Origin: Vicia villosa
Lineage: Eukaryota; Streptophyta; Magnoliopsida; Fabales; Fabaceae
Direction: 5' to 3'
Assembly: GCF_029867415.1 (NCBI RefSeq)
Contig: NC_081185.1
Location: 116,787,987 to 116,851,986, forward strand
Length of the DNA: 64,000 bases
Positions 10,041 through 63,897 of this stretch are shown here, one piece after another. A program made the position numbers and the translations under genes. Position 1 is the first letter of the stretch, and the number at the start of each line of letters is the position of its first letter. Under the pieces are notes generated by a model. It did not search any database. It was not told where the DNA came from and was given only the letters and a program-made list of their open reading frames with translations.

Positions 10041-10064
10041 AGCGTTGTTCGTGATGAGAGAAAC

Positions 10065-10425
10065 GGGTCATACATTTAGACCATATCTGAAGAGGAATAT
10101 CAGGACGAGCCATACATTAGACCATATCTGTTGAGGAATAGCAAAACGAGTCGTACATTAGACCATATCTGTTGAGGAATAGCAGAACGAGTCGTACATT
10201 AGACCATATCTGTTGGAATGTCAGAACGAGTCATACGTTGGACCATATCTGAGGAAGGATATCAGAACGAGTTATTCATTAAACCATATCTGAAGGAGAA
10301 TACCAGAACGAGTCATACATTAAACCATATCTGATGAATAATGCCAGAACGAGTCATACATTAGACCATATCTGACTGAAAATACCAGAACGGGTCATAC
10401 ATTGGACCATATCTGATAGAGAATG
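10065..10425. repeat. Tandem array A (copy 2)
   Basis: The same about 41-bp repeats as at 950-1310, with the same order of variants, as expected from the 9.1-kb duplication. Confidence 0.85.
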
Positions 10426-11607
10426 CTTGCTTGTTAGAGTCGATGAGTTATTTGACGAAGTTTTGGAATGTAAAAGGGCTTGTCAGAATGAATCTCCAGC
10501 TCAATTATATCTGAGAGGAATGATTTTCGAGGCGGAACCTGAAAACAAAGTTAGAAATATGCAATGTCATGAATGCAAATGAAATGTTTTCAAGGATATT
10601 TAAGGAATTTAGTTAGCAACATTGGAAAGTGATTTGGTCGCAATTTGTTTGAAGAATTCTGACCCTCGTCTTTGAACATCCTTCTTTGAGAATCAAGCTC
10701 GCCATATCGAGTGGGTCATCGCCTCTGATTCGGGATACTTCTGAATTTAAAAGTATATGGCTAGAGGAAAATAAATCCTCTTGCCCCTTGATTAGGAAAT
10801 CAGTCCTTGATAGGAGTCCCTGAAATTGTGCGCCCTAAACCCCTAAGATTCTTGAAAGGGTTAGTTAAATCATGTTATGCTTATGATGTCATGATGTCAT
10901 GATGTTATGCGAATGAAGTTCATTTGGCGTAGTGTGAGATAGTAAGGACAAATAAGTCCTTTTAATAAAACCTGCGAGGAAACAAAGGTTAGTAGCAGAC
11001 ACAAACAAGTCACGCAGGTCACACAATTTTTGGCTTAAGGCTTGCATTGAGTCTGATCAGGTGTCCTTCCCAAGGGTATTTCTATGGATAAGGAGATTTC
11101 AGCAACGGGTTCTACCGAGTTACCCAGAATTGTCAGCCCTCCTAAAGCACCCTCGAACATGATACATACATACCATGCAATGATACTTTGAGAAAGAACC
11201 TATCTGAGCTGTAGTATCGGGTAGCGACTATGCTCTCAACATACATCAAGAGTAGTCCCCCCACTACGTTCCTAAAAGTCAGGATGGGTTAAAGGTTACT
11301 AAAGGTCCTTAAGCTCCGACTCACCCACAGGCATCTACACGAACCTCCCTCATACAAGAGAAGCATGTAAACACCCATAGAGGCCTAACTTAAGCGTGAA
11401 CTCTCATATTGACCAATCCTCCACATACATGAAGGAGGTCGCCATGACTATGCCACTTCCTATCTTAGATGTACTTGAACCCGGGTGTAGGATTCGTCCT
11501 TCAGTTAATTCCCAAAACAACCCTGAAAAATAAAGCAAGCAAAGCAAACAATAGAAAACAATTAAGTGAATCCTAAACTTTTAAGGTAACCCCTCTTTTA
11601 TCGAAAA

Positions 11608-11625
11608 TCCCCAACAGAGTCGCCA
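11608..11625 (-). other. Primer-binding site, tRNA-Arg type (copy 2)
   Basis: TGGCGACTCTGTTGGGGA on the minus strand, four bases inside the end of the LTR at 11630. Identical to the copy at 2493-2510. Confidence 0.75.
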
Positions 11626-11629
11626 ATTC

Positions 11630-14600
11630 TGTAATACGGTGAACTGACTTTTTATAATCAAAAATGTACGGTAAGCAAGAGTCGCCACCGACTTTTATTT
11701 TATCCAAATATCGGAAAGGCTAAAAGAACAGGAAAATACCTTTTAAAAAGATTTTGAGTTCGGGGGGTAAATTATGCAAAGGGAAGGTTTAAAAAGCACC
11801 CTTTGCATCCATGGTTTTCCATGGGCTCTTAATTTGCTTTGCTCTTTTTGTTTCAGAAATGTAGAAGAAGTGAATACGGACTTTAGCTCGTAAATGAGCG
11901 TAGCCATATTGAAGAATTATGAGAAAGAATATTAAAAAGGTTTTAGAGCAAGGCAAAGCAATTAAGGGCAGTTTACCTTATAGTTTTGAGAATCTGTTCT
12001 TTTAGCCTTTCAGGGTGAAAGGGTCTATCCTTGCCATAAGAGGGCAGGAAGCCTTTCATTTGGAGGTTTGAAGGGTCATCGAAATATCCTTCGCCATAAG
12101 ACTGACCCATGCCATAGAGAGGCAGGTAGTCTAAGGGGAAGGACCAGAATAGCCTTCCGTAGGCAGCCAGAGGATACCTTAGCCTTTTCCGTAGGCAACT
12201 TCCGAGGGTCGAGATCATGCATATCGAAGGCAGCATCATTAGGGACCATGATCTTAATCGAGGCAACTGGCTAAGGTATCCTCGTATTCGAGGGACTGGC
12301 TATTCTGCAAAAAATACACAAGGCAACAGGCAACAGGCAGCAAAGAGGTTACCCCAAAAGTGTGCGTGTGTGCAACAATCACGTGATTGGTTCAGAATAT
12401 ATTATCTTATAATATTAATGATTCTAATTCAATTCAGGGTTATCACTCCCTAGGATCACTAACCACAACAATTAATATTAACAGTAATAATAGCAATATG
12501 GGGAAGGGAAATTGTAACCAGCGGGATAAGGTTTGAGACAAGTAATAATTAAGATTTGAGTTTAGGGTTACCAATTATTCGACGCTTTGGCAATTGACAA
12601 ACCCTGAAAAGGTGGGAAAAATAAGAAGGCAAAGTAGGGTGAGTGCATTATCGGTTCAGCCATAAACAGGGTTAACCCTAATCAATAAAAAAAAAATAAG
12701 AAAGGGAAAGAATACTTAGCTTCAATTGACGAAGGTTGATAGACAATGGTTTGCCTCGAGCAACAAGCATTGACCCTGACCATCAAAGAATTGGCGAAAG
12801 AATAAAAGGACGCAGTGAGTGTATGGCTAATTCAATGACAATTAAAGCTAACCTTGATCAAATAAAAGAGGGCAAAATAAAATGAACCTTTAAAGAAATA
12901 TGAAGTAAGACTTAGCTTTTGATTTAATCTGATATGGTTTGTAGTCGGAAGAATCTTTATTAATCCATGCATGCATGCACAAGCTATGAATGTTTGAACT
13001 CACGATGGTAGTACCTCACAAAAACAAAAAAATGTTAATAATAATGCATAAAATCAGATGAACAAAATAAACACAAATATTAAGTCGAATAAATCATATG
13101 AAAAGAAACATAAAAAAAAGTAAATAAATATTTTTTACTTGGTTCTTTTTTAGTATAATAAAATAAAATCTAAATCCCCTTCTTTGGTATTTTTTTTCTA
13201 ATCAACTAATAAATTGAAGATGAGATTTTAGTTAATTAATTATACAATTAAAATAAGGAAAAAAAAAAAAAAAGGTACTGTCTATAAAAAAAAAAAAAAA
13301 AGTTGCAAAGACTTTAAGGACCTAAAGGCTCACTTGTTATCTCTAAAATCCTAAATTGAATCATGATTAAATAACTAAAGAAAAGAAATAAAAATCTCTT
13401 AAATTGTACAGGAGAGGCGGTGCATCTTCTTCATCACATGTTTTTGGCTTTTCAAACAAGACATCTAGATCCAATAATAATATGACACATGGCACTGAGA
13501 TTAATTTAAAGAAAGAAAAAAAATGAATTGAAGAATAAAACAAGCTTTTAGCGTGGAAACCAAAATGCAGAGTTTCTGTTTCTTTCTCATCTCATCTTTC
13601 TTCACTTAACAAACACTATGGCCCTAACTTCATCATAATAAGAAAAACACATAAAAACAAACATACAGTGGTGGTTGCATATCGGTAGCCAGTGGTGGTT
13701 CTGCAACGGCGGAAACAAGTTGTTTCCCGGTGGTGCGTCTTCGCAATGTCACGGCCAGATCTGCGTTGGAGATGCGATTGAGTCTGAATCGGAGGAGGGA
13801 GTCTGATACGATGTTGACGGTGATTTCAACATCGTGCATTACTCGTCTATTGTTGAATGCTGATGAACAGATTCGGGCTTTGTCTCAGATCTAAAGTTTC
13901 CGCGAATGTTGTTGCGTTCCTGTTAATGATGTTCTAATGTCGGGTCTCGTGTTGCGGCGATCGACGAGGAGTATGGTTGCTCGCGGCTGTACGGTGATGC
14001 TGTTGCTATGCGCCGAAGGAGGTCGACTCTGCCGCTTCTGCTTTGTTAACCTGTCAACGAGAACGACACAAGAACATAGAAAAAGTTAAAGAAACCATCG
14101 GTTTTATTTAACGATACTGGTGTTGTTGTTAATTTGTGAAGGTTTTGATGGTGTAGCTCGAATCTGTAGGTGCGATTGCGATGCTGCTACGGATTTGCGG
14201 TTATTGGTTCTTCCATTCCTTTTCTCCAAGATTGTTGTTTTATTGATGTTGTGCGGTTTGGCTGGTGGTTATCGAAAGTAACATCCGCCATTTTCTTTTT
14301 TATTCGTGTTCCTTCAACACCTGTGAGCAAAACAAGGCAACAACAATATTGGGACATGGAAACATTAGTGAAGTCAATTTGTAAAACTCATGTATTGTTT
14401 GCGTGTTTGCTGTTCGATCCATATGATGTTGATTGATTTCGCGGATGACTCGGTTCTGAGTTGATTTGTTGTCGCGATATTGATCCTTCTTCTTTGATTT
14501 CCCTGCAATTTGAATGCTAATTGGAAAGTTGTTGAGATTTTGATACGTGAACTTGTGAACGGTGTTGCCCAAAGTTGCCTTTTGGAGTCAATCTATGTAC

Positions 14601-15187
14601 AGTGACAAAGAAGAACCTAAAATAACGTGTTGTTTTTTGTCTGTGTATGATGAAGGTGCCTTGTTCATGACAATCCGGTTTTGGTTTGTAAGAATAGGCA
14701 GAGTTTTTGTACCGATGAAATTGGTTGATCATCTCTCCCTTTTTTTTCTTAGGTTAGGATTTGTTAGTTGTTATTTATATAAAAAAGTTAGGTTAAGAAA
14801 AAAAATGGGCTTGGATTTTGGCTTATTTTCTAGATTTTGAATATGAGTAAAAAAGATTTAAAAGGTTTAATTTAAACATAAAAATTCAATTTAAATAAAA
14901 CAACGTTTTTTCAAGATTTTTTTAGATATAAAATTAAGAAAGAACAAAAATAACTGTTTAAAACAAAAAGAGAATTAATTAAAAAGCTATAAAATAATTT
15001 TGCGATTTTAAGGAAAAAGCAGTTTAAAACAAAAAATAAAGTTAGTAACAGATAAAAAAATGTCAGTAGTGGGATTCGAACCCGTGACCGTGTACCTGCA
15101 AACTTTCCTCCTTACCAATTGTGTCATGTCGTTTAATTGAAATAAAACGACATTTAATTGTATGAGGGCAAATTTTGGGGTATGACA
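11630..15187 (-). repeat. Ogre-like LTR, 3558 bp (5' LTR of the minus-strand element)
   Basis: TG...CA termini (TGTCATACCCC at 15187, TATTACA at 11630 on the minus strand). It differs from the LTR at 2515-6074 by two A residues in a homopolymer. Its 5' edge abuts a plus-strand Ogre 3' UTR at 15188, so the minus-strand elements were inserted there. If so, a 5-bp target duplication GGGGC should be found on the far side, left of the window. Confidence 0.9.
15064..15133 (-). other. tRNA-like sequence in LTR U3 (TLS-1 duplicate)
   Basis: Identical to 5951-6020: ACACAATTGG and GGTTCGAATCC blocks 32 bp apart on the LTR sense strand. No acceptor stem. Confidence 0.7.
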
Positions 15188-16719
15188 GGGGCATATCGCC
15201 CATAGTGAACATCTCATAAAGTCCTCGCGAGGCGAATCTTTCCAAAGTTCCTGCTAACTGGGGCAAATCTATGCAAGTCCAAATTCAAACATCTTGATCA
15301 ATACTCAGTGGCGTGTCCTGAACCAAATAGTAAGTTACTATGATACTGGGGGCAACTTTCAAGACACCCATGTCTCCCCACAGAGCCAGGTTCACAAAAC
15401 CACCTCCCCGCAGAGTAATCATTAAGAAGACATCTTTAAACATATTCGTCTCAACAAAGACATGACTCCCCAACAGAGTTTACATCTTCCGCATTACCGG
15501 TCATCCAATATGTTGCTCTTCTCCAACATGGTTTATCCCCAGTCAGGGTACATCAAGTTACTGATCATCCCTAAGCAGAAATCATAAATCCCCAGCTGCA
15601 CGTCTTCAAAACAAGATCAAATATCCAATCCACAAGGATACATAGATTTGTTTTCTCAGAACAACATCAGTCATACATCATATACATCACATACATATTC
15701 ATACTTTGTATACATTTACTTTATGATAAACATACAGGAGAAACTCGTCATACAATACATGCATCATGACATTGCATATTTCTAACTTTGTTTTCAGGCT
15801 CCGCATCGACAAACATTCCTTTCAAATATAATCGAGATGAAGATTCGTTCTGACAAGCCTTTTTTATATTCCAAAACTTCATCAACTGCAGCGTACAAGC
15901 ATTCTCAGTCAGATATGGTTAAATGTATGACTCGTTCTGGCATTATCCTTCAGATATGGTTTAATGAATAACTCGTTCTGACGTCATTCATCAGATATGG
16001 TCTAATGTATGACCCGTTCCGGTATTTCTCATTCAGATATGGTTAAATGTATGACTCGTTCTGGCATTATCCTTCAGATATGGTTTAATGAATAACTCGT
16101 TCTGACATCCTTCATCAGATATGGTCTAATGTATGACCCGTTCCGGTATTCTCAGTCAGATATGGTTAAATGTATGACTCGTTCTGGCACTATCCTTCAG
16201 ATATGGTTTAATGAATGACTCGTTCTGACACCCTCCAACAAATACGATCTAATATTCTCCAGCAGATATGGTTTAAAGCATGACTCGTTCTGACGTCCTC
16301 TATCATATATGGTCTAATGTATGACCCGTTATGGTATTCTATTTACAAGATCTAAATCTATCATCACAAACGAGGTAGATGCGATCAACTGTCAAAGTCT
16401 AAATCCTGTTACTACGAACAGAAATGACACGATTAACATTTAACAACCACTTCTCAACACTTCAAGTTCAGATATAATCTAACGTATGATTCATTCTGAC
16501 TTTCAAAACTTATCGAGACAAATGGCATCTTCAAACCCATCACAATCAAATCCCAAGAATCTGGATGGCATCTCCAAGCCCATCTCTGACAAAAATCCCT
16601 ACTTCACCTAGGGCAAATTTCTTGGTATTCTAGTGTTCAATCATCTTCCACCTTCAGATACCGACTGGCATACAAACCACTCTACATCTTCAGGTTTAAA
16701 ATAATTGAACAGGGGCAGC
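15188..16719 (+). mobile_element. Plus-strand Ogre, 3' UTR remnant with PPT
   Basis: This is homologous, in inverted orientation, to the 3' UTR of the minus-strand element (6075 to about 7920): shared blocks include the CCTCGCGAG segment near 15225, the ATCCCCAGCTG segment near 15590 and the final GAACAGGGGCAGC tract before the LTR at 16720. It differs in its tandem repeat (array A instead of array B). Its 5' half is not in the window because the minus-strand elements begin at 15187. Confidence 0.8.
15905..16340 (+). repeat. Tandem array A with three-unit higher-order repeat
   Basis: Monomers of 41-42 bp begin CAGATATGG and contain ACTCGTTCTG. Three types alternate: GGTTAAATGTATGACTC, GGTTTAATGAATAACTC and GGTCTAATGTATGACCC, giving a higher-order period near 123 bp (first type at about 15911, 16034 and 16157). 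Units degrade towards the right end. Same monomer family as 950-1310 but longer and more ordered. Confidence 0.85.
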
Positions 16720-22986: not shown

Positions 22987-23290
22987 GGGTTATTACCATT
23001 TTACCTCCTTGCCATATAGGTTTTTTCTGGTTTTGCCCCCTGTAAAAAAATTTTTTGAAAAGCAACCTTGTCATTTCAAAAAGCTAACTTTTTAGCCCCT
23101 AAAGTCAATATCCGCAAGGAAAATCTGCAGGTTTCCTGCGGATTTTCTTTCGGATTTTCCTGCGGATTTTGACTTTAGGGGCTAAAAAGTTAGCTTTTTG
23201 AAATGACAAGGTTGTTTTTCAAAAAAAAAAATTTACAGGGGGCAAAACCAAAAAAGACCTATATGGCAGGGGGTAAAATGGTATTAACCC
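22987..23290. mobile_element. Mutator-type hairpin MITE, 304 bp
   Basis: The two halves are inverted copies, starting GGGTTATTACCATTTTACC and ending GGTAAAATGGTATTAACCC, so the whole element folds into one hairpin. It is flanked by the direct repeat TAATTTAAAT (22977-22986 and 23291-23300), 10 bp, which fits a Mutator-type 9-10-bp target duplication. Its termini resemble those of the large foldback element at 57332-61040 (GGGTTAATACC...CTGCCATATAGG). The centre holds short GGATTTTC repeats. No coding capacity. Confidence 0.85.
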
Positions 23291-37700: not shown

Positions 37701-40648
37701 CGATTGTCTGTTTACTTTGAAGTTTGAACATAATTTGAATTTTGACAAAAGTCAACTTAATTGAAGTACAGACAAAATCTATACCTAATTAAGACCTAAA
37801 TGATTAGGGTTTTTATCATATAATTACTCACACAATTAATTAGATTAATACAAAGTGAAAATGTATATTAAGTATTTAAGAAAATAACTTAAAACATATG
37901 ATTTTAAACCTAATTAAAATATAGGAAATAAATAATATTTTTATGATTTTTTTGATTAAACACAAAATATATGTATTAAGTGACATGTGTGTGAAAAATG
38001 AAGTAAAAATGACTTAATTTGATAGATTAAATAATTAAGTGAAGTTTGTATAAAAAAAGAAAGAAAATAAGGGGTAAAAAATTGGTTTGGCCCTAGTATG
38101 GTTCGAACCCACGCCCCTTTGGTCACACCACAAAACAATAACCAACTGAGCTGCGCGCGCAGCTTGTTATTCAGATGCAACGAATTGTTTATATTTTAAA
38201 AAGACCCATGAGATTCAAATTTCGCGCGCCACCATCTTCGTCTTCAACCTTGAGCTCAGAAATTTTGAATTTCTAACTCCCTTGTTTCTCAACCAAATGG
38301 TGTGATGTAAACATCAATTTTGCTTGATTTTGGACGAGGAACATGGCCATGGATTCAGAATTTATTTATCTTAAGTGTAACTAACTAATTTTAGCATGAA
38401 CACGAAGAACACGTAAACCCTAATTTTAAAATTAAATGATGCACAAGATGAATAAATGAATGATGATAGAGGGTTTTTAATCCTCTGATGATGCTGAACA
38501 AGATAGAATCGAGCTATTTCATAAAGAGTACTTGAATTAAGGAGCTGGAGCTTGAAAACTTACCTCTGAAAATGGAGGTCGTGAGGATGATTGAGAGCAC
38601 CTGGGCTTGTATGGATGATCTGGATAGCTTCCTTGTAACCCAGTGATGCTAACTGAATGCTTATTGTGACTTGAATCCTTCTGAATTGTTCTATGGACCT
38701 CCCTCGATTTCAGCTTCAAGTGAACATGGAGGTTGTTGAATTTGGAGTTACAGATGAGCTGCAGCCATCTGGTTAGCTTCACTATGACCAGAGGAACGTG
38801 CCTGGATGCTTGGCTTTGTTGGAAACTCTTTGAATTGCTCGATGGTCCTCCAACTGCAAGTGCTCCAAAATGAACTCGATAATGGTGTTCTTCTACTTAC
38901 AGAAGTGATCCAGGTGCTTGGATCACCTCAAATGAACCCCCTGAGGATGATAGAAGGCTTACTTTTCAAAGATGAGCCTTGGTTTGAAGAAATCGATTCT
39001 TCTTGCCAAAGAACTTTGAAAAACAATAAGCAAAAGGAGAGAATGAGAAAGCAAGTATTATGGTTGCTTTGGTGTGATTTTGAATGAGGAATGCCTCTAT
39101 ATTTATAGGCAAATGGTTCAGTACTGAAGTAGAGGAGTGAGCTTCCTTAGTGAAGTTGATTTGCTTCCTTAGCCATGAAGAAAGTTTGGAAAATATCCAA
39201 GTGCAATGATGCATTTTCGGGCTAGCTTCCCCAACCATTGATCTTGCAGGATCTTGGGGGACATTTCTGATTCAGAGGAGGGTTCCAATTGGCTAGTGAG
39301 AAGATTCCTTGATGATTCATCATTTGCCATAAATTCAAGAATGTAATCATTACTTAATCACATGGCTTGGTTTTGGAATATTCTCTTCAATCTTTATGCA
39401 ATGATGGAAATTGATGCATGGTATGTTTTCAGATGCATTAGAGGTCGTGTAGCACCACTTAGTGAAGCAAGATGCACAAAATTGCAAAGTTCCAAATTGT
39501 ACATGACCTATAATTTTAGTTTATGAGGCCAACTTTGGACAAGCATAACTCTTAGCTCAAATTGAATTTGGAGAAGGTTGAACACAATTTGGAAAGCCCT
39601 AAACATCTACTTTAAATCATTAGTTTATGTCTTCTTCAGAATCCTTTGGGAAATTTGTGAAAAATGAGGCCAAAGTTGGAAGAAAACTAGGTTAAAACAC
39701 TTAGAAAAATTTCTAAGTGTTTATGACCTAAACTTCAAAATTTCCAAAACTTCATAAATGGTTGATCTTTTGAAAAAAGTTCCTTTGTAAGATGTTGTTT
39801 TATTTTGCAAGATCTACAACTTTCATGTTGGAAGTTTTTTGAGTTGTGTAGGTGAAATTTTGAGTTCTCACCATGCCTTCAAAAACCCTAATTCCCGACT
39901 TTTCGCTCCTTGATGAATTTCTTTGAATTTCTTTGGCCAAATGACTTTGACATCCATATATTGATGATATTGATCTTTGAAAGTCATTTTTTGACCAAAA
40001 ACCTTAAAAGTCAATGATGATCCTTCACAGTTGACTTTTTCCTGACAAAGTGAATTTTTGGGTTTTTGTGTAGAAACAAGATCTTTTCCTCAAATGAATG
40101 ATGTAAATGGATTATATTGAGGTAGTAGAGATCCTTGAATCATGTCTTGAGTTTTGGATTCATTCCCTGATCAAAAGTCAACCATCTTGGTGAATTAGGT
40201 CAAAACCCTAATTTGTCGACCATGTGAAAATAATGACTGTAGACTTTGAATTGAAGTGTGATGTCCAGTAGATCTTGTAATATGAGTTATTTGAAGAAGA
40301 TTGATGTCTTTGAATGACCCTCTGGGGCTTTTTAGGGTTTCCCAAATGTGATCCCTGATTTTAGTCCTTGATAGGCTCAAAACCCTAGTCTGGTGACCTG
40401 AGTAAACCTGTACTCAGATGACTGGATGTCTAATCAATCATAGATGAGAAAAATGAAGTCTTTGAGCCCCATGATTGTATTAGAGATTAGTCTTTGTATT
40501 GATTGATCCTTTGCCTGAGCTTTCTTGTCTTTGAGCATCCTCGATTAGGTACCAGATGGAGAAATGACTGCTCTGGGTACTTGTCTTGACCTGATGAAAA
40601 ATCCTGAAGATATGTCATCTCAGGGGGGTCAAAAATTAGGGTATGACA
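34766..40648 (-). repeat. Ogre/Tat-type LTR, 5883 bp (3' LTR of the large minus-strand element)
   Basis: On the minus strand it starts TGTCATACCCTAATTTTTG at 40648 after a purine tract (AAATAGGGGCATC) and ends AACGACACCACA at 34766. Flank CAAGT (34761-34765) would be the target duplication. Near its end it has CACTTCCCTATGTATAACC, the counterpart of the block in the 3.5-kb LTRs. It contains a tRNA-like sequence (38092-38162) and several dispersed motif families: GCCTTGTACAAAGCCCAAGG (about a dozen copies, 35306-36990), GGAGGCTAACCCTTTCCAGG (four) and TTCACCGGGAATAAT (about four). The LTR is longer than the Ogre LTRs on the left and belongs to another family. Confidence 0.8.
38092..38162 (-). 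other. tRNA-like sequence in LTR (TLS-2)
   Basis: On the LTR sense strand: GCTCAGTTGG (A-box type), 32 bases, then GGTTCGAACCA (B-box type). A GC-rich dyad GCTGCGCGCGCAGC lies directly in front of or overlaps the A-box block. T-arm pairing is partial and no acceptor stem is seen. Confidence 0.7.
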
Positions 40649-47965: not shown

Positions 47966-48033
47966 AAGCAGCAGAGTTGGTAAGAGTTCAGGTGATGAGT
48001 GTGAGGGACTGGGTTCGATCCCTACCCTCAACA
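47966..48033 (+). other. tRNA-like sequence in LTR (TLS-3a)
   Basis: LTR sense strand: GCAGAGTTGG (A-box type), 31 bases, GGTTCGATCCC (B-box type). A GTGAGGG...CCCTCAAC dyad brackets the B box. No complete cloverleaf. Confidence 0.7.
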
Positions 48034-48196: not shown

Positions 48197-48264
48197 AAGC
48201 AGCAGAGTTGGTAAGAGTTCAGGTGATGAGTGTGAGGGACTGGGTTCGATCCCTACCCTCAACA
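48197..48264 (+). other. tRNA-like sequence in LTR (TLS-3b, duplicate)
   Basis: Copy of TLS-3a in the second 231-bp unit, with the same A- and B-box blocks. Confidence 0.7.
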
Positions 48265-52734: not shown

Positions 52735-53433
52735 ATGGATTCTGATGATGATAATCATCAAAATAATTTGATTAAACATGAAGAACTTATGGAATATCCA
52801 AAAAAATTGGATAAACTTAATAAATGGACAATTCCACCAGTACCTTCAAATCAAATTTATAAATTTGACAAAATAGATATATTATCTCGTTTTACTGTAA
52901 AAAGTTTAGAACAAACTATTCAGATTTCTGAAAGTACTCAGACAATCAAACTTTTAACGAAAAAGGATTTACTTCCTTTTAAAAATTATAATTATATCCA
53001 TGTTGGTTTAATACAAGTTGCTGTTAAACCTTTGACTTTGCTAGGATTAAATACTAGCATCCTGGGATATATCAGGGATGGTAGATGTAAAGATTTTAAA
53101 CAATCTTTAGCTGCTTTAATTGAAACGAGTCTGTGTCATGGACCAGTTTATTTTGACGTCTCTCCCAATATAAGCTTATCCATGTCTGATAAAAATTTAT
53201 TAGACGCTCTCCAATTAACTATTCATACTAATGGTTACAATTTCAAACCTGGTAGTGAAATTATGGCTATATGTTATAGGGTTTATTACAAAGTCCTTAC
53301 CACTTTAAACCTTAAAGCTAAACAAATATCATTTCCTGGAACTACTACTTTAGTTCAAACTAATCTGCTAACCTCTAATGTTGCAACTAATAGGTTGCTT
53401 AAATGGGATGAAATTAATTTTCCAAAAACCTAG
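52735..53433 (+). pseudogene. Endogenous caulimovirid movement-protein region
   Basis: A 232-residue open frame. The central part (GLIQVAVKPLTLLGL, GYIRDGRCKDFKQSL, then HGPVYFDVSPNISLSM) is the conserved 30K-type movement-protein core of caulimovirids, which in the living virus forms cell-to-cell tubules. The same frame is open upstream from 52624 but has TAG at 52720, so the ATG at 52735 may not be the original start. TAG at 53431 ends it, while recognisable sequence continues in frame. It is the N-terminal domain of what was a long polyprotein. Confidence 0.82.
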
Positions 53434-53779
53434 AACCTCCCTCAAGCCATTGAACCAGAACCTATCCTTAATAAGGATGTTGATCAAATAATCCAATCTA
53501 GTGAAGGAGATCTAGAGATAAATTTTAGCTCTAAAAGAATTATTAAAATACCTAGATCTATGTCTAGAAGACATTCTGTAAATTCTATAAATGAATTTTA
53601 CTCTGCTCCTAGTCAATTGGCTAGACCCTCAACTTCTTAATTAAGAGAAGAAATAGAAGTCGTTGAAAATATAAGACTTAGCGAAAACAAAATTTCCCAT
53701 GGTATATATCAAAAATCAAATCCTCCTAGAGTAGAATCACCTACTCCCTCAGATATGGACTTCCCATTATAAATTTATA
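53434..53779 (+). pseudogene. Decayed linker between movement and coat regions
   Basis: In the frame of the movement protein it continues with Ser/Pro-rich sequence (SSKRIIKIPRSMSRRHSVNS) and a further stop at 53638. The frame changes near 53770, before the next open segment. Describes a break in the endogenous virus. Confidence 0.6.
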
Positions 53780-54739
53780 ATGTTAGCTTATTCTCCAAGT
53801 AGTAATCTAAGAAACCTTGTCAATGACGAGTTTCAGCATGCGAGATACACCCAATTTAGAGAATGGTTTTTTAAAACATTTTCGGCTCCTATGTTAGCAA
53901 GTTTTAAAGATGAGTACTATACTCAAATGTCTATGAACCAAGATTTCATTCCCTTTGTCAAATGGTTCATTAGTTACTATATAAGTAAACAAAAAGAAGA
54001 ATTGGTTCTCATAAAACAAGACGAACTGTTAGTTCTACAAAAGCCTTGGGAAAGTATCCAAGGAGAGAAAATAGAATCTCCTTTTCCCCGAGAACAAACA
54101 ATAAGTTTGGGTTCTCATACTGAAGCTACACCTTATCTTACCCTTCAATTACAAAGGGTTGAACAAAATCATATTACCCTTAAGGATTTAAATTCCATAA
54201 TTAGATCCAACAATTATACTAATGCCTACCCTGTTTGTCTAGGAGAACAATTTATTTCTCTAGAAAAAGAAATTTTATCTATTAAAGACCTTTTAAATAA
54301 ACAAATAGCACGTCAAAAAATTATTATTGACCTTATTAATAAGCCTAATCCTCAGGAACAAGCTTCTACATATAATATATTAGATGTTCCTATAATCCAA
54401 CCGCCTATTCCTATAGAAGGATTTAAAATGGAAACCAATGGTGATGAGTTTGTCCGTATTCTTGAGAAAAAGCTTAAGGATTTACATTTAACTATTATGA
54501 CTAATCAAGACTCTTCCAATGAAGAAGACATTAATGATTTAGCAAATATGTTTGCTGATTTAGACATTAGTAATCAAAATACTAGTGAGATAAACCATGT
54601 CTATAGCTTTAAACCCTTAGAAAAATACTATTATAAGCGTCCCTCTCCTCAAGATTTACTTTTTGAGGAACCTGAACCCTTCCAAAATTCATATTCTGGA
54701 AAAGCCATTTATGAATGGAATATTGATGGGATTAAATGA
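53780..54739 (+). pseudogene. Endogenous caulimovirid, segment between movement and coat proteins
   Basis: A 319-residue open frame (about 320 bp gap-free after the preceding break). It has FREWFFKTFSAPMLASFKDEYY at the start, a possible coiled-coil (FISLEKEILSIKDLLNKQIA) in the middle, an acidic stretch (SSNEEDINDLANMFADLDIS) and ends in YEWNIDGIK, the start of the caulimovirid coat region. The frame is lost at 54737. I cannot assign a specific function to the middle part. Confidence 0.65.
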
Positions 54740-55516
54740 CAAGCAAATCCTAGATACAATACATAGAATACTTATGTATTCAACTGTTTGTAAACAGCAT
54801 GGAAATTCCGACAGCGATATTGCCTCCTTTATATCAACTGGATTTGTTAGTCAATTAAGAGGCTGATGGGATCATTATCTCACTGAAAGTTAGAAAAAAG
54901 ATATTCTTCACCATAAGAAATTAGTTAAGTCCGAAGCTCCTGAAATCGGAGCAAGTGGTATTGCCACCACAGGTGAAGAAGATGCGGTTTATACACTGTG
55001 TCTCTCTATCCTTCAACATTTTGTTAGAACCAATATCCCTAATAGAGAAAAATTTCAAACTCTACTTCAGAATCTTAGATGTCCTTCTCTTACACATTTT
55101 AGATGGTATAAAGATACCTTTTTGTCTAGAGTTTACCAGTTAAAAACCCCTAATTCTATTCACTGGAAAGCCAAATTTATTGATGGTTTACCCCATTTCT
55201 TTTCTGAGAAGGTTAGACATTCTTTAAGAAGTAAAAATGATGGGATAAATATTAATTATCCTGATCTTACTTATGGTCAAATTCTTAGCACTTGGTTAAT
55301 GAAGGATTAACCTTATGTAATGATATTAAGCTTAGAAATCAGCTTAAAAAACAGAAACTTTCTGAAAAACACCAAATGGGTGAATTCTGCGACCAGTTTG
55401 CCTTGTATCTTGGAAGATCTTCGGAGAATAAAAGGAAGAAAGGAAAAATATTTAGAAATAAACCTCATTAAAATAATAAGGATATTTATAAAAATTCTTA
55501 TAGAAAGAATAAGAAA
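54740..55516 (+). pseudogene. Endogenous caulimovirid coat-protein region, broken in several frames
   Basis: Recognisable pieces lie in different frames: ILDTIHRILMYSTV, then FVSQLRG with TGA at 54864, EDAVYTLCLSILQHFV, LRCPSLTHFRWYKDTFLSRV, WKAKFIDGLPHFFSEKVR and LTYGQILSTW. These match the coat (capsid) region of petuvirus/florendovirus-like polyproteins. At least three frame changes and several stops show it is dead. Confidence 0.7.
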
Positions 55517-55837
55517 ATGAGTCACTTTAATAAAAGTAGACCAAAAGATAAGCCTTTTAATTATAAAGGCAAAAGAAAAGTTAAAATGCTTGATGTATCT
55601 TGCCACAAATGTGGTAAAGCTGGTCATTATGCAAATCAATGTTGGACTAAAAAAGCTCTCAATGAGATTGAGGATGAACAATTACGCTCTCAACTTGAGA
55701 AAGTTTATTTACTCATGTCTGACTCAAAGACTGATTCTTCTAATGAAGATATTGACATGATCTATGAATCATCATCAGATTATTCCTCTGATGATTCTGA
55801 CAATAATAATTGTCAATGTAATCAAATTGATTACTAG
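55517..55837 (+). pseudogene. Endogenous caulimovirid coat C-terminus with zinc knuckle
   Basis: A 106-residue open frame. It is basic at first (KDKPFNYKGKRKVK), then has a CCHC knuckle (CHKCGKAGHYANQC, about residues 34-47) that binds nucleic acid in the family, and then an acidic Ser/Asp tail (SSSDYSSDDSDNNN). TAG at 55835 separates it from the protease frame, which lies in the same frame after it. Confidence 0.82.
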
Positions 55838-55852
55838 AAGTCTATTGTTGAC

Positions 55853-56686
55853 ATGAATGGTCTTAATGTTCTTACTACAGAACAAGATGAAGCCATAAAG
55901 GCTATTGAGTCTATCTCTTATAATAAGCTTAAAAGAAAAATGCCTGAAGTTTTAATTCAAGAAAAATCTAAAAAAGAATCTCCTATTATTATTGAAGCCC
56001 CTTACCAATTAAGTGAGGTTTTATCCAGATTTCAACAATCCAATATTCGTGAAACTCCTGTTTCCCTTACTGATTTACATAGAGAAATTAATCTTTTAAA
56101 ATCTGAAATTACTCAGATAAAGAAAGATAATAAAAAATTATCTCAAAGGGTCTCCTTACTTGAAATAGATAACCTTAAAGTTGAAGAAATATCTTCTACT
56201 AGCAGTCCTTCTACTAATGATAGGTTTCTTACTCTTATTGATAGAGTAATTTCTCAAAAATGGTTTGTTAAAATAACTTTAGTTATTAATAGAACGTTTA
56301 TTTTAGAAAATGAAGTTGCCCTTATTGATAGCGGCGCTGACCTTAATTGTCTACAGGAAAGAATTGTTCCTACCAAGTATTATACGAAAACCACTCAAAC
56401 CCTTGCTCAGGCTAGTGGTGACAAATTAACGGTTAATTATAAATTACCTAATACATATGTCTGTAATCAAGATATTTGTTTACCTACCTATTTCATTTTA
56501 GTTAAAAACATGACTCATAGAGTTATTCTAGGAACTCCTTTTTTAAATAGCATCATGCCTTTAATTAATGTAGACACTAAAGGCATCACTACCATGATTA
56601 ATGGAAAAATTTTTACTTTTGAATTCATTACTGACCCTCATATTAAAATGCTTAATGAAGTTAAAAGTATTCTCTTAAATAAATAA
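55853..56686 (+). pseudogene. Endogenous caulimovirid protease region
   Basis: A 277-residue open frame. A Lys-rich helical part with coiled-coil look (EINLLKSEITQIKKDNKKL) precedes an aspartic protease: VALIDSGADLNCL (about residues 152-164, catalytic DSG present) and later HRVILGTPFLNSIMP. It would process the polyprotein. It ends with TAA at 56684 in front of the RT region, so the polyprotein is interrupted here too. Confidence 0.8.
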
Positions 56687-56773
56687 AAACAATTAGGTTT
56701 TCTTAAAGAGGAAGTTAGTTTATTAAATATTAATGAACAACTTAATAAAAATGAAATAAAAGAACAAATTAAA

Positions 56774-57331
56774 TTGATTGAGCAACAATTTAAAAAAGAA
56801 GTGTGCAATGATTTACCAAATGCTTTTTGGGATAAAAAGAAACATGTTATTTCTTTACCTTATCTTGATGACTTTAATGAAAGTCAGATTCCCACCAAAG
56901 CTAGGCCAACTCAAATGAACCATGAGTATTTGAAGTTATGCAAAAAAGAGATAGAATCTCTTTTAGAGAAAAAAACTAATAAGAAAATCCAAATCTACTT
57001 AGAGTTGCACAGCTTTTTATGTCAATAATGCTGCTGAAAAGGAACGTGGGGTCCCTAGACTTGTTATTAATTACAAGCCTCTTAATAAGGTGTTAAGATG
57101 TATTAGGTATCCTATTCCTAATAAAAAAGACCTTTTAGATAGATTAAACAATGCCTTAATCTTCTCTAAGTTTGATATGAAATTTGGTTATTGGCAAATT
57201 CAGATTAATGAATCTGATAAGTATAAAACAACCTTTACTGTGCCTTTTGGACATTATAAATGGAATGTCCTTCCTTTTGGCCTTAAAAATGCCCCTTTTG
57301 AATTTCAAAATATTATGAATGATATTTTTAA
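56774..57331 (+). pseudogene. Endogenous caulimovirid RT, first half
   Basis: Two frames: 56774-57028 (LPNAFWDKKKHVISLPYLDD) and, after a frame change near 57000, 57090-57331 with FSKFDMKFGYWQIQI and FGHYKWNVLPFGLKNAPFEF, typical RT blocks before the catalytic centre. The sequence is cut by the foldback insertion at 57332; the catalytic half is at 61041 onward. Confidence 0.85.
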
Positions 57332-57873
57332 GGGTTAATACCTATTTTCCCCCCTGCCATATAGGCGACATTTGAAAAACCCCCTGCAAAAAAAAAAGTT
57401 GCAAGAATTCCCCTAACATTTGAAGATTCTCTCATTTTAAACCTTCGTCAGATCCAGTCATCCAAAATGCTTACGTGGCATGTATTTTTTTATTTTTTTA
57501 ATTGTTTCTAATGACGTGGATGCCCAGGTGGCTTTTTATTTTATTTATTTATTAATTTTAATGCCACATGTATTTTATTTTGTTTTTATTTTTTGTTAAT
57601 ATAGATTAATATAAGAAAGGGTTAAATACTATTTACCCCCTGCCAAAGTAGCGAGATTCGGTTTTCCCCCTTATTAAAAAAAAATTTAGCCTTCGCCCCT
57701 TAGAAAACAAGATTCTGTTTCCAGGAACCCCCTATCACCTGTTTGGCTGACTGTGCTGGTGGAATCTTGCTGACTGGAATGAATCTGCATACGTGGTTGA
57801 CACGCTGGACTTATGCTTGGATGCTTGTAGAAATAGCATGCTTGTAGAAATAGCAGAAAAATTAAGATGCAAA

Positions 57874-57938
57874 AGTAAGGATTCGAACCCCTCTCCTAAA
57901 GGTAAACAAGCACAACACCAACCACTGGGCCATGAAGC
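57874..57938 (-). other. tRNA-like sequence, left end of inner element (TLS-4)
   Basis: Minus strand: TGGCCCAGTGG (A-box consensus), 32 bases, GGTTCGAATCC (B-box consensus). It faces the left terminus, 260 bp away. T-stem is only partly paired. Confidence 0.75.
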
Positions 57939-59030
57939 CTTTCTTGTTCAATACGAGGGAGGATTTCAATATGTAGCATACTTTATGTCTTTTTTTTCTT
58001 TTACAATAATACTACTAGTATATATTAATACGTATAATGTATTATTTTATTTATTTATTTATTGTTAATATTATCAATATGTTTTTTAATATTTATATAT
58101 TACTTTATTTATTTACTCTATTTTTTATTAATATTAGTAATATATTTATTACTTTATTACTTTATTTATTAGTATTATTAATATTAGTTATTTATTTATT
58201 TATTTATTAGTATTATATTAATATGTTCATTAATATTTATATATTACTGAATTTATTTACTTTATTTATTTATTAGTATTATTAATATGTTCATTAATAT
58301 TTATTTATTACTGAATTTATTTACTTTATTAAATAAATAAATAACTAATATTAATAATAAATAAAATAATACATAAAGTAATATATAAACATTTAAAAAC
58401 GTTAAAACATAAATAAATAAATAACTAACATATTAATGTTTATTAACATATTAATGTTTTTTAGTTACAGTTTATAAAAATGAAAATTAATATGTACAAA
58501 ATGAAGTGTTAATATATATACTTTTAAAAATGAATATTTTTTAAAAAAACTGAACAATAACTAGAAAGTGTTATTAAAAACATTTTTGTTTGTTTATAAA
58601 AAAAACTGTATATATTAGAACCATTATAAAAAAAATATAAAAACGATTTATAATTAATATATAGATAATTTAATAATTAAAAAAACTGAGCAAATTCCTA
58701 ACAAATATTTAAAAAGTTAATTAAAAAACTAAATAAAATTATTTAAAAAAAACGTTAATTAAAAAATTATTTAAATAAAATTATTAAAAAAAACGTTTAT
58801 ATAAACGTTTTTAAAATACATTTAAATATTTTATTAAAAAAAACGTTATAAAACTATGCATTTATATAATTATATAATTATAAAATACATTTAAAAATGT
58901 TATAAAATAATGCATTAAAATATATTTTATAATTGTATTCAGCAATGTATTTAATTATTGTATTCAGCCATGTATTTTATAATTATATTTTATAATATAT
59001 AGAACTCCATTACAATTCTAAGCAACTAAA

Positions 59031-59102
59031 CATGCATGGTCTGGTGGTAAGCTTGTAGCAATTTAGCCTTGGTGACCTGGGTTCGAATCCCAGTTTTGCA
59101 AC
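59031..59102 (+). other. tRNA-like sequence, right end of inner element (TLS-5)
   Basis: Plus strand: TGGTCTGGTGG, 32 bases, GGTTCGAATCC. The T-arm is complete: CTGGG-TTCGAAT-CCCAG. It faces the right terminus, about 127 bp away. The 7-nt flanks do not form an acceptor stem. Confidence 0.78.
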
Positions 59103-59217
59103 TTATTAATTTGCAATTTTTCAAGCATGCTTTCCAAATGCAGCAGCCACGTCCTCCAAACAAGGAGGGGAAAACCGAATCTCGCTACTTTGGCAGGGGG
59201 TAAATAGTATTTAACCC

Positions 59218-59443
59218 TATAAGAAAACATGTTAAAAATTTGTTGTTAATTTGCAATTTTTCAAGCATGCTTTCCAAATGCAGCAGCCACGTCCTCCAAA
59301 CAAGGAGGGGAAAACCGAATCTCGCTACTTTGGCAGGGGTAAATAGTATTTAACCCTATAAGAAAACATGGGGAAAACCGAATCTCGCTACTTTGGCAGG
59401 GGGTAAATAGTATTTAACCCTATAAGAAAACATGTTAAAAATT
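59218..59443. repeat. Local duplications of the inner element's right end
   Basis: The right end (GGGGAAAACCGAATCTCGC...TATTTAACCC) plus the flank TATAAGAAAACATG is repeated twice more, the second time truncated. They look like tandem duplications after insertion, perhaps by slippage or imperfect repair. Confidence 0.85.
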
Positions 59444-59449
59444 TGTTGG

Positions 59450-59514
59450 AGGTAAGAATTGAACCCACTCCCTTCCACTACAAGATGCAGCACCTAACCA
59501 CTAGACTACAAGTT
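59450..59514 (-). other. tRNA-like sequence, left end of outer element (TLS-6)
   Basis: Minus strand: TAGTCTAGTGG (as in plant tRNA-Glu/Asp), 32 bases, GGTTCAATTCT. Without the inner insertion and its duplications it would be about 310 bp from the left terminus of the outer element. Confidence 0.75.
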
Positions 59515-60691
59515 CAAAGCTAATATATGTTTACATTTAATTATTCTTATAGTATTCAACTTATTATTTGCATTTAATTAATAATTATATACAACTAATT
59601 ATATACTAGTTATATTAATTTAATTTAGTTCATATTTTCTAATTAATATTAGTTTAATTTAATTTAACATTATTTTACTATTAACGTTATATTTAAGTTA
59701 ATTAATTTAATTTAATCATTTTATATTAATTTAAACAATAACGTTATATTTTTGTTATAATTATTACTATTTTAGTTTATATTTTACTGTTTTTTCATTT
59801 TTCTGTTTTTTCATTTTTGTTATATTTTAATTTAAACAATAACGTTTTTTCATTTTTGTTATATTAACGTCATTTTTTCATTTTTCTGTTTTTTTTATTT
59901 ATTTTTTCTGTAATCTTTTTACTATTTAAATATTAAATAAAAATGTATTTAATTATTAGTTTTGAGGTTATTTATTTTCTAACATACGTTTTAATTATTA
60001 AATAAAAATGTATTTAAATATTTTTTATTTAATATTTAAACTTATTAAACAAATACAATTAAAACGTATTAAATTCAATAAAATGTATTTAAATATTAAA
60101 TAAAAACATACATTTTAATTATTAAATAAAAATGTATTTAAATATTTTTTATTTAATATTTAAACTTATTAAACAAATACAATTAAAACGTATTAAATTC
60201 AAATAAATGTATTTAAATATTAAATAAAAACATACATTTTAATTATTAAATAAAAATGTATTTAAATATTTTTTATTTAATATTTAATCTTATTAAACAA
60301 ATACAATTAAAACGTATTAAATTCAATAAAATGTATTTAAATATTAAATAAAAACATACATTTTAGTTATTAAATAAAAATGTATTTTAATATTTTTAAT
60401 ATGTATTTAAAAATGTATTTAAATATTTTTAAATTAATTAATATGTATTAATATAATTAGTTTAGTTTATTTTTAATTTATTTAAATAGCTACAGGATTG
60501 GTTTAGTATATATATTATTATTATTATTTAACGTAAATATATTATTATTATATATAAAACATAAATATTTAACGTAAGTATAGTATATATATTATTATAT
60601 ATATATTACGTAAGTATAATATATATTATATATATATACCGTAAGTATAGTATAAGAAAAATTAAAAGCAAATATATAACAAGTTTAATTA

Positions 60692-60760
60692 TCCAGACTA
60701 GTGGTCAGGCGAAGCATATCTTAAGTGGAAGGGTGTGGGTTCAACTCCCACCCAAGACAA
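60692..60760 (+). other. tRNA-like sequence, right end of outer element (TLS-7)
   Basis: Plus strand: GACTAGTGG, 33 bases, GGTTCAACTCC. T-arm complete: GTGGG-TTCAACT-CCCAC. About 290 bp from the right terminus. It shares blocks with TLS-6 (CTAGTGGT, AGTGGAAGGG, GTGGGTTCAA), so the two look like diverged arms of one long inverted repeat. Confidence 0.78.
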
Positions 60761-61040
60761 ATTTTTGGACATGAACATGCTTACTAAAAATTTATATAAT
60801 AAAAAATGCTTACTTGGCAATAAAAAAAAAATAAATAATATAAAAAGCCACATGGGCTATCCAGTCAACGAAAAAAATTAAAAAAATACATGCCACGTAA
60901 GCTTTTTGGATGACTGGATCTGACGAAGGTTTAAAATGAGAGAATCTTCAAATGTTAGGGGAATTCTTGCAACTTTTTTTTTTGCAGGGGGGTTTTTCAA
61001 ATGTCGTCTATATGGCAGGGGGCAAAATAGGTATTAACCC

Positions 61041-61925
61041 TATTTTTAATCCTTATACAGAATTTATAATTGTTTATATTGATGATATCTTGGTTTTTTC
61101 TAAAACTATAGATCAACATGTTAAACATTTGAAAATATTTAAAGGATTAATTAAACATAATAGATTAGTTATATCTGCTCCTAAAATGAAACTTTTTCAG
61201 ACAAAAGTTAGATTTTTAGGTCATGAAATTGACCAAGGAACAATAATTCCTATACAAAGAAGTATTGAATTTGCTTCAAAATTCCCCAATATTAATATAT
61301 TATTACACATAAAAAACAATTACAAAGATTTCTTCGTAGTCTTAATTACATAGCAGATTATTATGAAAATCTTGCTAAAGATACTGCCATATTACATGCT
61401 AGGCTCAGAAAAAATCCTAACCCTTGGACTAATGAACATTCTCTGGCAGTCCAAAGAATTAAAAATAAGGTTAAATGTTTGCCTTGTTTATCTCTTGCTA
61501 ACCCTAAGTATTTCAAATTTGTTGAAACTGATGCTTCAGATTTAGGCTATGGAGGAATCCTTAAACAAGTTATACTTGATACATCAAAAGAAGTTTTGGT
61601 TAGATTTACTTCTGGAAAATGAAATCCTACTCAATCTAAATATTCTACTATCAAGAAAGAAATGCTTTCTTTTATAAAATGTATTTCAAAATTTCAAGAT
61701 GATCTTCTTAATAAGAAATTCTTATTAAAAATAGATTGCAGCTCAGCTAAATCAATTATTGAAAAAGATGTTAAAAATCTTGTTGCTAAGCAAATTTTTG
61801 CTAGCTGACAATCTCAATTATCTATGTTTGAATTTGATATTCAACACATTAAAGGTGAAAATAATTCACTTGCTGACTACCTAACTCGTGAATTTATGCA
61901 GGGAAAAAATGATGACCCCATATAG
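61041..61925 (+). pseudogene. Endogenous caulimovirid RT second half and RNase H
   Basis: After the foldback element, RT continues with the catalytic block VYIDDILVFSK, then KMKLFQTKVRFLGHEI. A frame change near 61320 leads to the RNase H (VETDASDLGYGG, KKEMLSFIKC, ending NNSLADYLTREF). Premature TGA codons are at 61620 and 61806. The catalytic IDD and the RNase H Asp residues are still readable, but the frame is not. It ends TAG at 61923, overlapping the start of the next ORF. Confidence 0.85.
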
Positions 61926-62184
61926 GGGAAGAGGCCGCGGTTATGGCCGTGGTGGAAGAGGGAGTAACAATATGTTACCCCAACCCGAATCAAACATTCC
62001 TCTAATAGGGGATTGGACTACAGTTTACAAAGGGAGAAAAATGCAGCAATTACCTGCATCTTCAACAAAAAAGGAAGATATTGCTTCCTCCTCTAATAAA
62101 AATACATCCTACAAGGAAGTTGCGGTTAATAACCCAGCTCAAGAACAAATGGATTATTTTGAAAATCTGTTAGGTGCCAAATTG
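61909..62184 (+). pseudogene. Second ORF of the endogenous caulimovirid, N-terminal part
   Basis: ATG at 61909 overlaps the end of the RNase H frame by 17 bases, a typical caulimovirid arrangement. It begins with an Arg/Gly-rich stretch (YRGRGRGYGRGGRGS), which suggests RNA binding, then PLIGDWTTVYKGRKMQQ. It is cut at about 62184 by the solo LTR. The continuation is at 63378. Function unknown; the match to second ORFs of florendovirus-like elements is from memory. Confidence 0.6.
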
Positions 62185-63377
62185 TGTTAATTTCAAGTTT
62201 AGTTTGTGGCACCTTTCGACCGATTTTATCGAGTATTCGTATAATTCCTTTTAGTTTTATATAACTATTTGTAGTTTTATAATTTAGCTTTTATTTCATG
62301 TTAATATACTTTTTAGTTATGATTTTTCAAGTCTTGGCAATTTTTGGAAGCTTTGAGCTTGATTTGGCCAAGATTGAAGATTGGCTGGCAGAAGTTAGCG
62401 CGCATCGCGCGGTATTAGGGCGCGACGCGCCCTGTCTTAGATATTTTGTTGAGGATTCCAGCAGAGAAAAACGCGCGTAGCGAGCTGGGGCGGTTTGATC
62501 TACAAGTGACTTGGCGCGAAGCGCGCTAGAGGGCGCGACGCGCCCTTGACAGAAATTGGAAATGCTATATATGGATAAAATTAGATTTTGTGAAGGAGGA
62601 TGCAACTTATGAGAGCTCAATACACTATTTTCTACTGTAGCAACTGATAAGTGAAGATTCGAAGCTTTGATCGTCGATTAATCGTCGTTGATGCTTGTTA
62701 TTCTTCATCCTTTCCTTGTTGAGCGAGCTACCATGTCTATGGATAGCTAAATCTCATTTGTATCAAGACAAGATGTAATCTTCCTTTACTTTTGTATGTT
62801 TTTCTTGTGAATATTGTGTATGAACAAGTGATGATCAATATAGATGGTTTAGTTTGTTCATTAAAGTTTTTCTATGGTATAAATGTTTGAGACATCATTG
62901 TTTGTACCTGGATCTAATTTCATCATCTATCAAACTATAAATTGCAGACATGGATTTAACGTTTGATATTTACTTTGTATCGGATTATAAAACGTTATTT
63001 GTATTGTTTAAGCAGTGGAGAAATCGACGGTTAAACAATACGGTAAATCTAGCTATATCGTTGCGGACACGGACGATATAGACGTCGATACATAATTATA
63101 TTGATCGTTAACAAGTTCATATATATATTTATAGGTTGTCATACAAATTTAGGTCGGTGAAATCGAATCTTCATACATTCTCTTAACCTTAAACACTTCC
63201 AATATTTAATCTTTGCTACAAAAACAAGTGAATGATGTGTGACAAAACAACAACCAACTTTACCTTAGCTCATTACGAAATAAATTGTAGAATGGCGGTA
63301 ATATCGCAATAATCCCTGTGGAGACGATATATATATATATATATATATAAAACGTACTACCATTACGCTTTACAACA
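62185..63377. repeat. Probable solo LTR, about 1193 bp, inserted in the viral second ORF
   Basis: Starts TGTTAATTTC and ends TTTACAACA (TGTT/AACA termini). Inside are GC-rich dyads (GGGCGCGACGCGCCC twice), a TATA box (62565) and an (AT)n run near 63331. No clear 5-bp target duplication: the flanks read AATTG and AAATC, so limits could be off by a few bases or the duplication has mutated. No coding frame supported. Strand probably plus, from the TATA box. Confidence 0.6.
62565..62574 (+). promoter_or_regulatory. TATA box of the probable solo LTR
   Basis: CTATATATGG lies about 380 bp inside the LTR, directly after two GC-rich dyads (62398-62435 and 62513-62546). This is the usual layout of an LTR promoter. 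Activity unknown. Confidence 0.5.
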
Positions 63378-63897
63378 AAATCCAGTAACAGAAAAAATCA
63401 TGTATGTTGATGAAGAAGATATTAAGATAAATCCAAATGATGGATGGTCTATCAAAACGAGATACCTCAAATCGAGAGGATATCCAGGTCTTCATGGAAA
63501 ATCTAGGCCTCACCTAGAGATTCTTTTGACTGTTACCGAATCGGTAACAATTACTCACCACTACCAGAACAATAATCCTGAAAGTTTTATAAACTTCAGT
63601 AAATGCCATATTAATAAAATCTTGTTACCAAGAGAATGGGGTCTTAACCCAAATGGCGAAAAAGCAATAAGAATTGCTGAAGGAAAGTATATCTACTTTA
63701 ATTACTGGGACTATGTCCAAGCTTTTACTCAAGCTTTTTATTATCAAAATCCTATGTTGTGTAAAACGATACCAATAACAAAGTATAATAGGGAATTAGA
63801 GAGGATAAGAAGAACAGGAACACAAGAATTGGTTATAACTGCTATTCTTTCACTTTCTCTTAAAACAAGATTACAAGTTTACAAGAATAACAAATAA
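63378..63897 (+). pseudogene. Second ORF of the endogenous caulimovirid, C-terminal part
   Basis: Open from the LTR junction (NPVTEKIMYVDEEDIKINP) to TAA at 63895, about 172 residues; the first ATG is at 63400. Features: YLKSRGYPGLHGKSRPHLEI, then LLPREWGLNPNGEKAIRIAE and YIYFNYWDYVQAFTQAFYYQ, a pattern I associate with downstream ORFs of plant endogenous pararetroviruses. The last third may be frame-shifted. No known catalytic motif. Confidence 0.55.

Follow-up and report, generated by a model that had tools for sequence, protein, structure and literature searches.

Outward-facing pairs of predicted pol III genes in the arms of non-autonomous Mutator-type elements of Vicia villosa

The stretch of Vicia villosa DNA analysed here (64,000 nucleotides, referred to as the window) contains retroelement open reading frames (ORFs) as well as a viral-type movement protein and protease. 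The domains of the latter two belong to a caulimovirid-like insertion at 52735-63897, the reverse-transcriptase-like region of which is interrupted by the outer of two nested transposons. Among named proteins, the nearest homologues of one viral-type ORF come from pea (Lathyrus oleraceus, 68% identity) and from L. sativus, followed by Trifolium, and another match reaches 87%. The window also holds a direct repeat of 6,075 bp (1-6075 and 9116-15188, 99.97% identity), which may represent the LTRs of a large retroelement of very recent origin.

The inner transposon interrupts the left arm of the outer transposon (Table 1), both are flanked by target site duplications (TSDs) of 9 bp, and each arm carries a single tRNA-like module. 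All four modules face outward, which confirms the nested arrangement with one outward module per arm proposed in the first-pass annotation. With the inner element excised, the alignment of the outer arms extends over ~394 bp and takes in the modules, with a local score of 414 (maximum of 300 shuffles 33). The inner arms are identical over their first 51 bp, and the homology continues inward with gaps on the right side (score 156; maximum of 200 shuffles 124). It had been proposed that the two families combine different tips with the same layout; the layout stands, but the tips are not unrelated, as both start with GGGTTAA and have CCCTGCCA in common. The right end of the inner element is present in three tandem copies ending at 59217, 59356 and 59420, and the steps of this array (59103-59421) are 140 bp and 63-64 bp, target sequence included. 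Since the duplicated target follows each copy of the right end, the multiplication is later than the insertion. Matches of 100% to the inner and outer arms were also found ~370 kb off, at C6:117218677-117222098, inverted and with the same 3.4-kb layout, which points to either a recent segmental duplication or a duplication introduced by the assembly. A short foldback element elsewhere in the window (22987-23290) has tips of a related kind, is flanked by a 10-bp duplication (TAATTTAAAT) and is devoid of a module.

Table 1. Coordinates of the two nested elements and their parts (window positions)
Feature	Position	Strand	Description
Outer element	57332..61040	.	Non-autonomous, Mutator-type; ends GGGTTAATACC; delimited by TSD and arm alignment
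Outer TSD	57323-57331 and 61041-61049		TATTTTTAA on both flanks
Inner element	57619..59217	.	Non-autonomous, Mutator-type; ends GGGTTAAATAC; delimited by TSD
Inner TSD	57610-57618 and 59218-59226		TATAAGAAA on both flanks
AT-rich core, inner element	57940..59030	.	88% A+T; longest ATG frame 57 aa
AT-rich core, outer element	59515..60690	.	89% A+T; longest ATG frame 31 aa
TLS-4	57871..57946	-	Predicted pol III unit: CA start 57946, A box 57932-57922, B box 57889-57879, T-run 57874-57871 (start and T-run derived from the A/B-box scan and module listing)
TLS-5	59023..59097	+	Predicted pol III unit: CA start 59023, A box 59037-59047, B box 59080-59090, T-run 59094-59097
TLS-6	59437..59522	-	Predicted pol III unit: TATAAG 59551-59546, A box 59508-59498, B box 59465-59455, T-run 59441-59437
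TLS-7	60680..60766	+	Predicted pol III unit: TATAAG 60651-60656, CA start 60680, A box 60694-60704, B box 60738-60748, T-run 60762-60766

The features of a type-2 pol III unit are present in the modules: an A box, a B box at tRNA spacing, a T-run terminator, an upstream TATA-like site and a CA start, the CA at -14 being replaced by TA in TLS-6. In TLS-4, -5, -6 and -7, respectively, the A-to-B gaps are 32, 32, 32 and 33 bp, and the T-run begins 4, 3, 13 and 13 bp past the B box. The distance from the B box to the tip is 261 and 128 bp in the inner element and 313 and 293 bp in the outer element (inner element excised), close to the 260, 127, ~310 and ~290 bp estimated earlier, and the T-runs of the window modules lie 120 to ~295 bp inside the tips. 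A run of at least four T residues was found 3-18 nt past the B box in all 48 listed modules (22 outer, 18 inner-type and 8 elsewhere). With the T-run located inside the arm, the predicted pol III transcript would stop there, so that transcription running outward across the terminal repeat, as initially proposed, is unlikely.

The recurrence of this arrangement was examined in the assembly of 2,034,964,285 bases (2.03 Gb; 1,888 contigs). The 11-bp outer tip has 1,812 matches (901+911) versus 481 (253+228) for a reversed control, and the 17-bp outer tip has 1,066 matches genome-wide versus 1 for its control. Among 100 listed places of the 11-bp tip there are 26 convergent pairs: all 14 pairs 1.0-3.7 kb apart that needed end retrieval (set 1), an extra pair beside them (P15, loci L092 and L093), nine pairs of ~430 bp, one of 7.2 kb (L136) and one of 5.5 kb, which was left out. 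For validation, with the scan and thresholds unchanged, ten further pairs with the 17-bp tip (set 2) were taken from 11 listed pairs of 1.4-2.1 kb beyond 77 Mb, one pair with a third tip being dropped. In set 1, modules are present at both ends of 8 elements, at one end of 3 and at neither end of 3, with 19 of 28 ends carrying an outward module and none an inward one; in set 2, 9 elements have modules at both ends and 1 has none (outward 18/20 ends, inward 0/20). P15 has modules at both ends. Altogether, the 25 other GGGTTAATACC elements of 1.0-3.7 kb, all sampled on contig C1, comprise 18 with a module at each end, 3 with a module at a single end and 4 without any, and no inward module occurs at any of the 48 ends of sets 1 and 2. 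Nine inner-type elements with two ends were available among the 40 scored of 1,300 BLAST candidates; six have both modules, two have one and one has none. Five of the nine match the query only to about position 159, short of its module, and four of these five nevertheless possess a module pair, the sequence of which is unlike the module of the query. An additional inner-type copy with both modules lies in a sampled 10-kb stretch (L077). Exact TSDs of at least 9 bp flank 13 of 14 elements in set 1, 8 of 10 in set 2 and 6 of 9 of the inner type.

Tip and octamer patterns were counted across the whole genome. An exact 17-bp tip is followed by an outward B-box octamer 76 times in the first spacing range, which was poorly placed and missed the commonest position, and 142 times in the next. 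At this commonest place 142 outward octamers stand against 4 inward ones, and the end of the A box is found at the correct distance in 120 of the 142. Three octamers lie 400-430 bp from the tip, one of them being a module of L136. The B-box octamer alone is not specific for modules, since 167 octamers were counted at a control distance of 132-162 bp downstream of the tip pattern, more than in either module range; an A-box end at the right distance accompanies only 8 of these 167. The defined architecture suspected in the first-pass annotation is thus recurrent, paired, outward-facing and mostly fixed in place in the copies examined, and the opposite outcome considered there, namely that most copies lack the pairs or carry them at random positions and orientations, was not observed (both modules in 18/25 outer and 6/9 inner-type elements).

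Modules are also absent from some longer elements and, at a relaxed threshold (A box with up to 3, B box with up to 2 mismatches), from all nine ~430-bp sister elements with the same tips (L097, L157-L164). Eight of these nine have TSDs of 8-9 bp and seven have an outward B-box octamer, which in the two fully read elements is part of a TTTTGAACCCT-type repeat. TSDs of 8 or 9 bp flank the module-free elements P1, P2, P6 and V6 as well as the ~430-bp group. Elements without modules have therefore moved, and the modules are not essential for transposition but helpful at most.

The modules exceed chance expectation. A scan for A/B pairs (A box with up to 2, B box with up to 1 mismatch, gap 20-70 bp) found 10 pairs in the window, whereas 30 first-order Markov sequences averaged 1.1 pairs and never exceeded 3; four of the ten are TLS-4 to TLS-7, two belong to one repeat and two to a tandem repeat. 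Under a stricter rule demanding a T-run and an upstream CA, which three of the four window modules pass and TLS-6 fails owing to its TA, a 200-kb sample of contig C1 gave 5 modules (two of them in one inner-type copy) versus 0 in ten 200-kb second-order Markov sequences. Modules of the same spacing with T-runs also occur outside these elements, in the window at 5959-6013 (-), 15072-15126 (-), 38099-38153 (-), 47969-48022 (+) and 48200-48253 (+), and beyond it at L071:329 (+), L071:4306 (-) and L087:9813 (+). Those at 5959 and 15072 lie just within one end of the 6-kb direct repeat, ~60 bp from a TGTCATACCCC end, an LTR-like placement. Modules of another kind, in which 40 bp separate the A box from the B box and tandem repeats lie nearby, were seen at L074:1745 (-) and L085:2215 (-).

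No tRNA was detected in the window by ARAGORN at default settings or by Rfam at the gathering score. At a 70% threshold ARAGORN gave 20 hits within 4 kb, of which four coincide with modules, and does not discriminate there. In TLS-4 to TLS-7 only 1-2 of 7 acceptor positions pair, versus a control mean of 2.88, and 23 modules average 2.00 of 7 versus 2.21 with partners swapped. Genuine tRNA genes are ruled out by these results: the tRNA spacing is kept, the fold is not. In plant tRNA genes a TATA-like site precedes the CAA start by slightly less than 30 bp. The modules resemble such genes in the upstream TATA-like site, the CAA start motif, the A box, the B box at 32-33 bp and the T-run, and differ from them in the lack of an acceptor stem and of an Rfam tRNA match. 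With tRNA-derived SINEs they have the tRNA-type A and B boxes in common; unlike SINEs, they have a T-run right behind the B box and are set in Mutator-type arms instead of a SINE body with its own duplication. A T-run so close to the B box would cut a SINE RNA short, and SINE identity was dropped for this reason. The boxes at tRNA spacing could also reflect chance insertions of SINEs or tRNA pseudogenes into the arms, an account that is hardly credible considering the truncating T-run, the near-fixed place and single orientation across many elements, and acceptor pairing at control level without a match to Rfam tRNAs. The modules are very probably minimal plant type-2 pol III genes of ~86 nt, neither tRNAs nor SINEs.

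By structure the elements that carry them are Mutator-type, with a putative pol III payload: 9-bp TSDs and long terminal inverted repeats are those of Mutator-like elements (MULEs). In maize MuDR the arms direct inward pol II transcription. No MURA-type transposase gene was found in the cores of the eight elements checked for ORFs. PF10551 domains are plentiful in the genome (150 scored of 7,041 candidates), and hand comparison of the 14 domains scored on C1 from 0.4 to 102.6 Mb placed none within 10 kb of a listed tip. The 7.2-kb pair L136, considered as an autonomous partner, has a 9-bp duplication and modules and was rejected, its sole frame of at least 90 codons being 113 codons from stop to stop. 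A Cassandra element was ruled out by the inverted repeats, the 9-bp duplications, the A/B-box promoters and the lack of a 5S match at the Rfam gathering score in the window. The tips match 69 loci in IMG/VR, and in no case do the 70 bases compared go on as they do in the element tips; two longer tip patterns gave 0 matches.

The earlier suggestion that the A- and B-box blocks are conserved and the DNA between them is variable was borne out by two alignments. In the alignment of 28 ends, unfiltered for modules and leaving out P1 and P6, the mean frequency of the commonest base is 0.80, 0.74 and 0.74 in the 10-base blocks holding the B box, the A box and the T-run, respectively, and 0.47 in the 20 bases between the boxes, the lowest value within the first 390 positions. 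Among 39 outer-type modules the mean pairwise identity is 0.76 for the A box, 0.87 for the B box and 0.84 for the T-run, the values for the two boxes being inflated by shared descent and by their use as the search key; the body reaches 0.42-0.44 and the segment immediately preceding the A box 0.37. Signals outside the search key are also kept: 38 of the 39 modules have T at -41, and 36 each have A at -40, C at -14 and A at -13. The TATA segment as a whole is little more conserved than its neighbour (0.54 versus 0.50), though two of its positions are near-invariant. In set 2, TATA near -42 was found in 15 of 17 modules, CA at -14 in 14 of 18 and a T-run 11-14 nt past the B box in 18 of 18. The putative promoter and terminator are better conserved than the body.

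This pattern bears on the possibility that the RNA itself is the product, the ~86-nt transcripts or siRNAs and fragments derived from them acting in cis or in trans, for example as decoys or triggers against related elements. The uniform predicted length (85-87 nt in 23/23 modules), the conserved start and terminator and the pairing of units in opposite orientation would agree with such a role; the body, however, is the least conserved part, and the predicted RNAs fold weakly (mean z -0.90), which makes this explanation quite improbable.

Comparison of the left and right modules addresses another alternative, in which a tRNA-derived fragment captured in an ancestral arm is a functionless passenger mirrored by the long terminal inverted repeat. 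Simple mirroring predicts like bodies, and in 6 of the 17 two-module elements (e.g., P13, L103 and L104) the two bodies are indeed 0.81-1.00 alike; the end-to-end alignment of the outer arms, modules included, and the TSDs of module-free elements also fit a passenger. In another 6 of the 17, however, body likeness is at the level of shuffled sequences (0.19-0.41; shuffled mean 0.40) although the A and B boxes together remain 0.73-0.86 alike, so that mirroring alone is insufficient; two elements with such unlike bodies, P10 and L099, have tips that are 0.97 and 0.96 alike. The remaining 5 elements are intermediate. L103 and L106 differ in module class despite tips up to 1.00 alike, and a variable body between conserved start, promoter and terminator likewise speaks against a passenger. 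The modules of L103, an inner-type element (303-358, -; 1658-1713, +), have an A/B gap of 34 and a AGCTCAGTTGG A box, unlike those of its relatives. In 15 of 17 outer-type elements with both halves readable, each 5' half is nearer to a half from another element than to its partner, a comparison that leans to this outcome by setting the best of many, several of them at 0.9 or above, against one. Tips are at least 0.97 alike in 8 of the 17 outer-type elements, 7 of which are among the 15 with non-partner-closest halves. The body and 5'-half comparisons weaken mirroring within the terminal repeat as a full explanation without removing it, and we consider the passenger account unlikely. Our reading is that the tips are homogenised and the modules diverge or are exchanged, with one unit apparently retained per arm. 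BLAST matches that stop at query positions 307-312 raised the idea of recombination at the B box; it is not claimed here, since a hypervariable body would by itself stop such matches.

The sequences establish the plan, the spacing, the orientation and the recurrence, together with stronger conservation of the predicted promoter and terminator than of the body and the lack of tRNA pairing. The proposed plan consists of a terminal repeat, an outward putative pol III gene, an AT-rich core of ~1.1-1.3 kb, a second outward putative pol III gene and the other terminal repeat. Each gene would comprise a TATA-like site, a CA start, an A box, a variable body of 32-33 nt, a B box and a T-run, and its predicted product would be a ~86-nt RNA that stops short of the terminal repeat. 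Use of these units by pol III is inferred from sequence, and selection on promoter and terminator may be what keeps one unit per arm; a pol III-gene anatomy together with selection on it appears somewhat more probable than the contrary. As to purpose, our preferred suggestion is that TFIIIC, TFIIIB and pol III gather where each arm meets the core and keep the arm open and less silenced, so that the ends would be reachable by a transposase supplied in trans; accessibility as the purpose of the units is speculative and, in our estimate, less probable than not.

In yeasts and animals, TFIIIC sites have a boundary function. Chromatin boundaries, also suggested in the first-pass annotation and here serving the host or neighbouring genes, would be compatible with two outward units on either side of an AT-rich core, yet nothing in the present data links the copies to host gene borders and the window copy lies inside the viral-type insertion, which renders a boundary role very improbable. 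A further-reaching reading, to which we give a probability of about 0.4, is that of a large group of legume DNA transposons marked by a selected outward pair of pol III units, in which pol III occupancy and not the RNA would serve the element, as the putative promoter and terminator are kept while the body turns over.

Among known systems, Cassandra TRIM retrotransposons are likewise non-coding plant mobile elements, both terminal repeats of which bear a promoter and a terminator for pol III (PMC7215508). Cassandra, however, is a retrotransposon with direct LTRs and a 5S-type gene, whereas the elements described here are DNA transposons with inverted arms, outward tRNA-type (A/B box) putative genes and variable bodies. 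In their 9-bp TSDs, long terminal inverted repeats, non-coding nature and AT-rich interior they resemble plant Mutator-like foldback or MITE-like forms such as MuTAnT (PMC4486113) and Tm1 (PMC3169594); the available portions of the literature on these hold no description of pol III genes in plant Mutator-like elements. A DNA transposon with paired pol III genes was not found in the available portions of the open-licence PMC literature (including PMC4524691, PMC9659126 and PMC5014426), which is no proof of absence.

The few known cases of terminal repeats bearing pol III genes, represented by Cassandra, would be extended to DNA transposons, and under the further-reaching reading the pol III pair would be, to our knowledge, a means of self-preservation new for DNA transposons. 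Elements with like tips and different modules, along with their module-free relatives, offer a natural experiment on how pol III occupancy affects a transposon and its silencing. Many tRNA-like signals in such legume genomes would be parts of transposons, which matters for the annotation of tRNAs, SINEs and pol III ChIP peaks.
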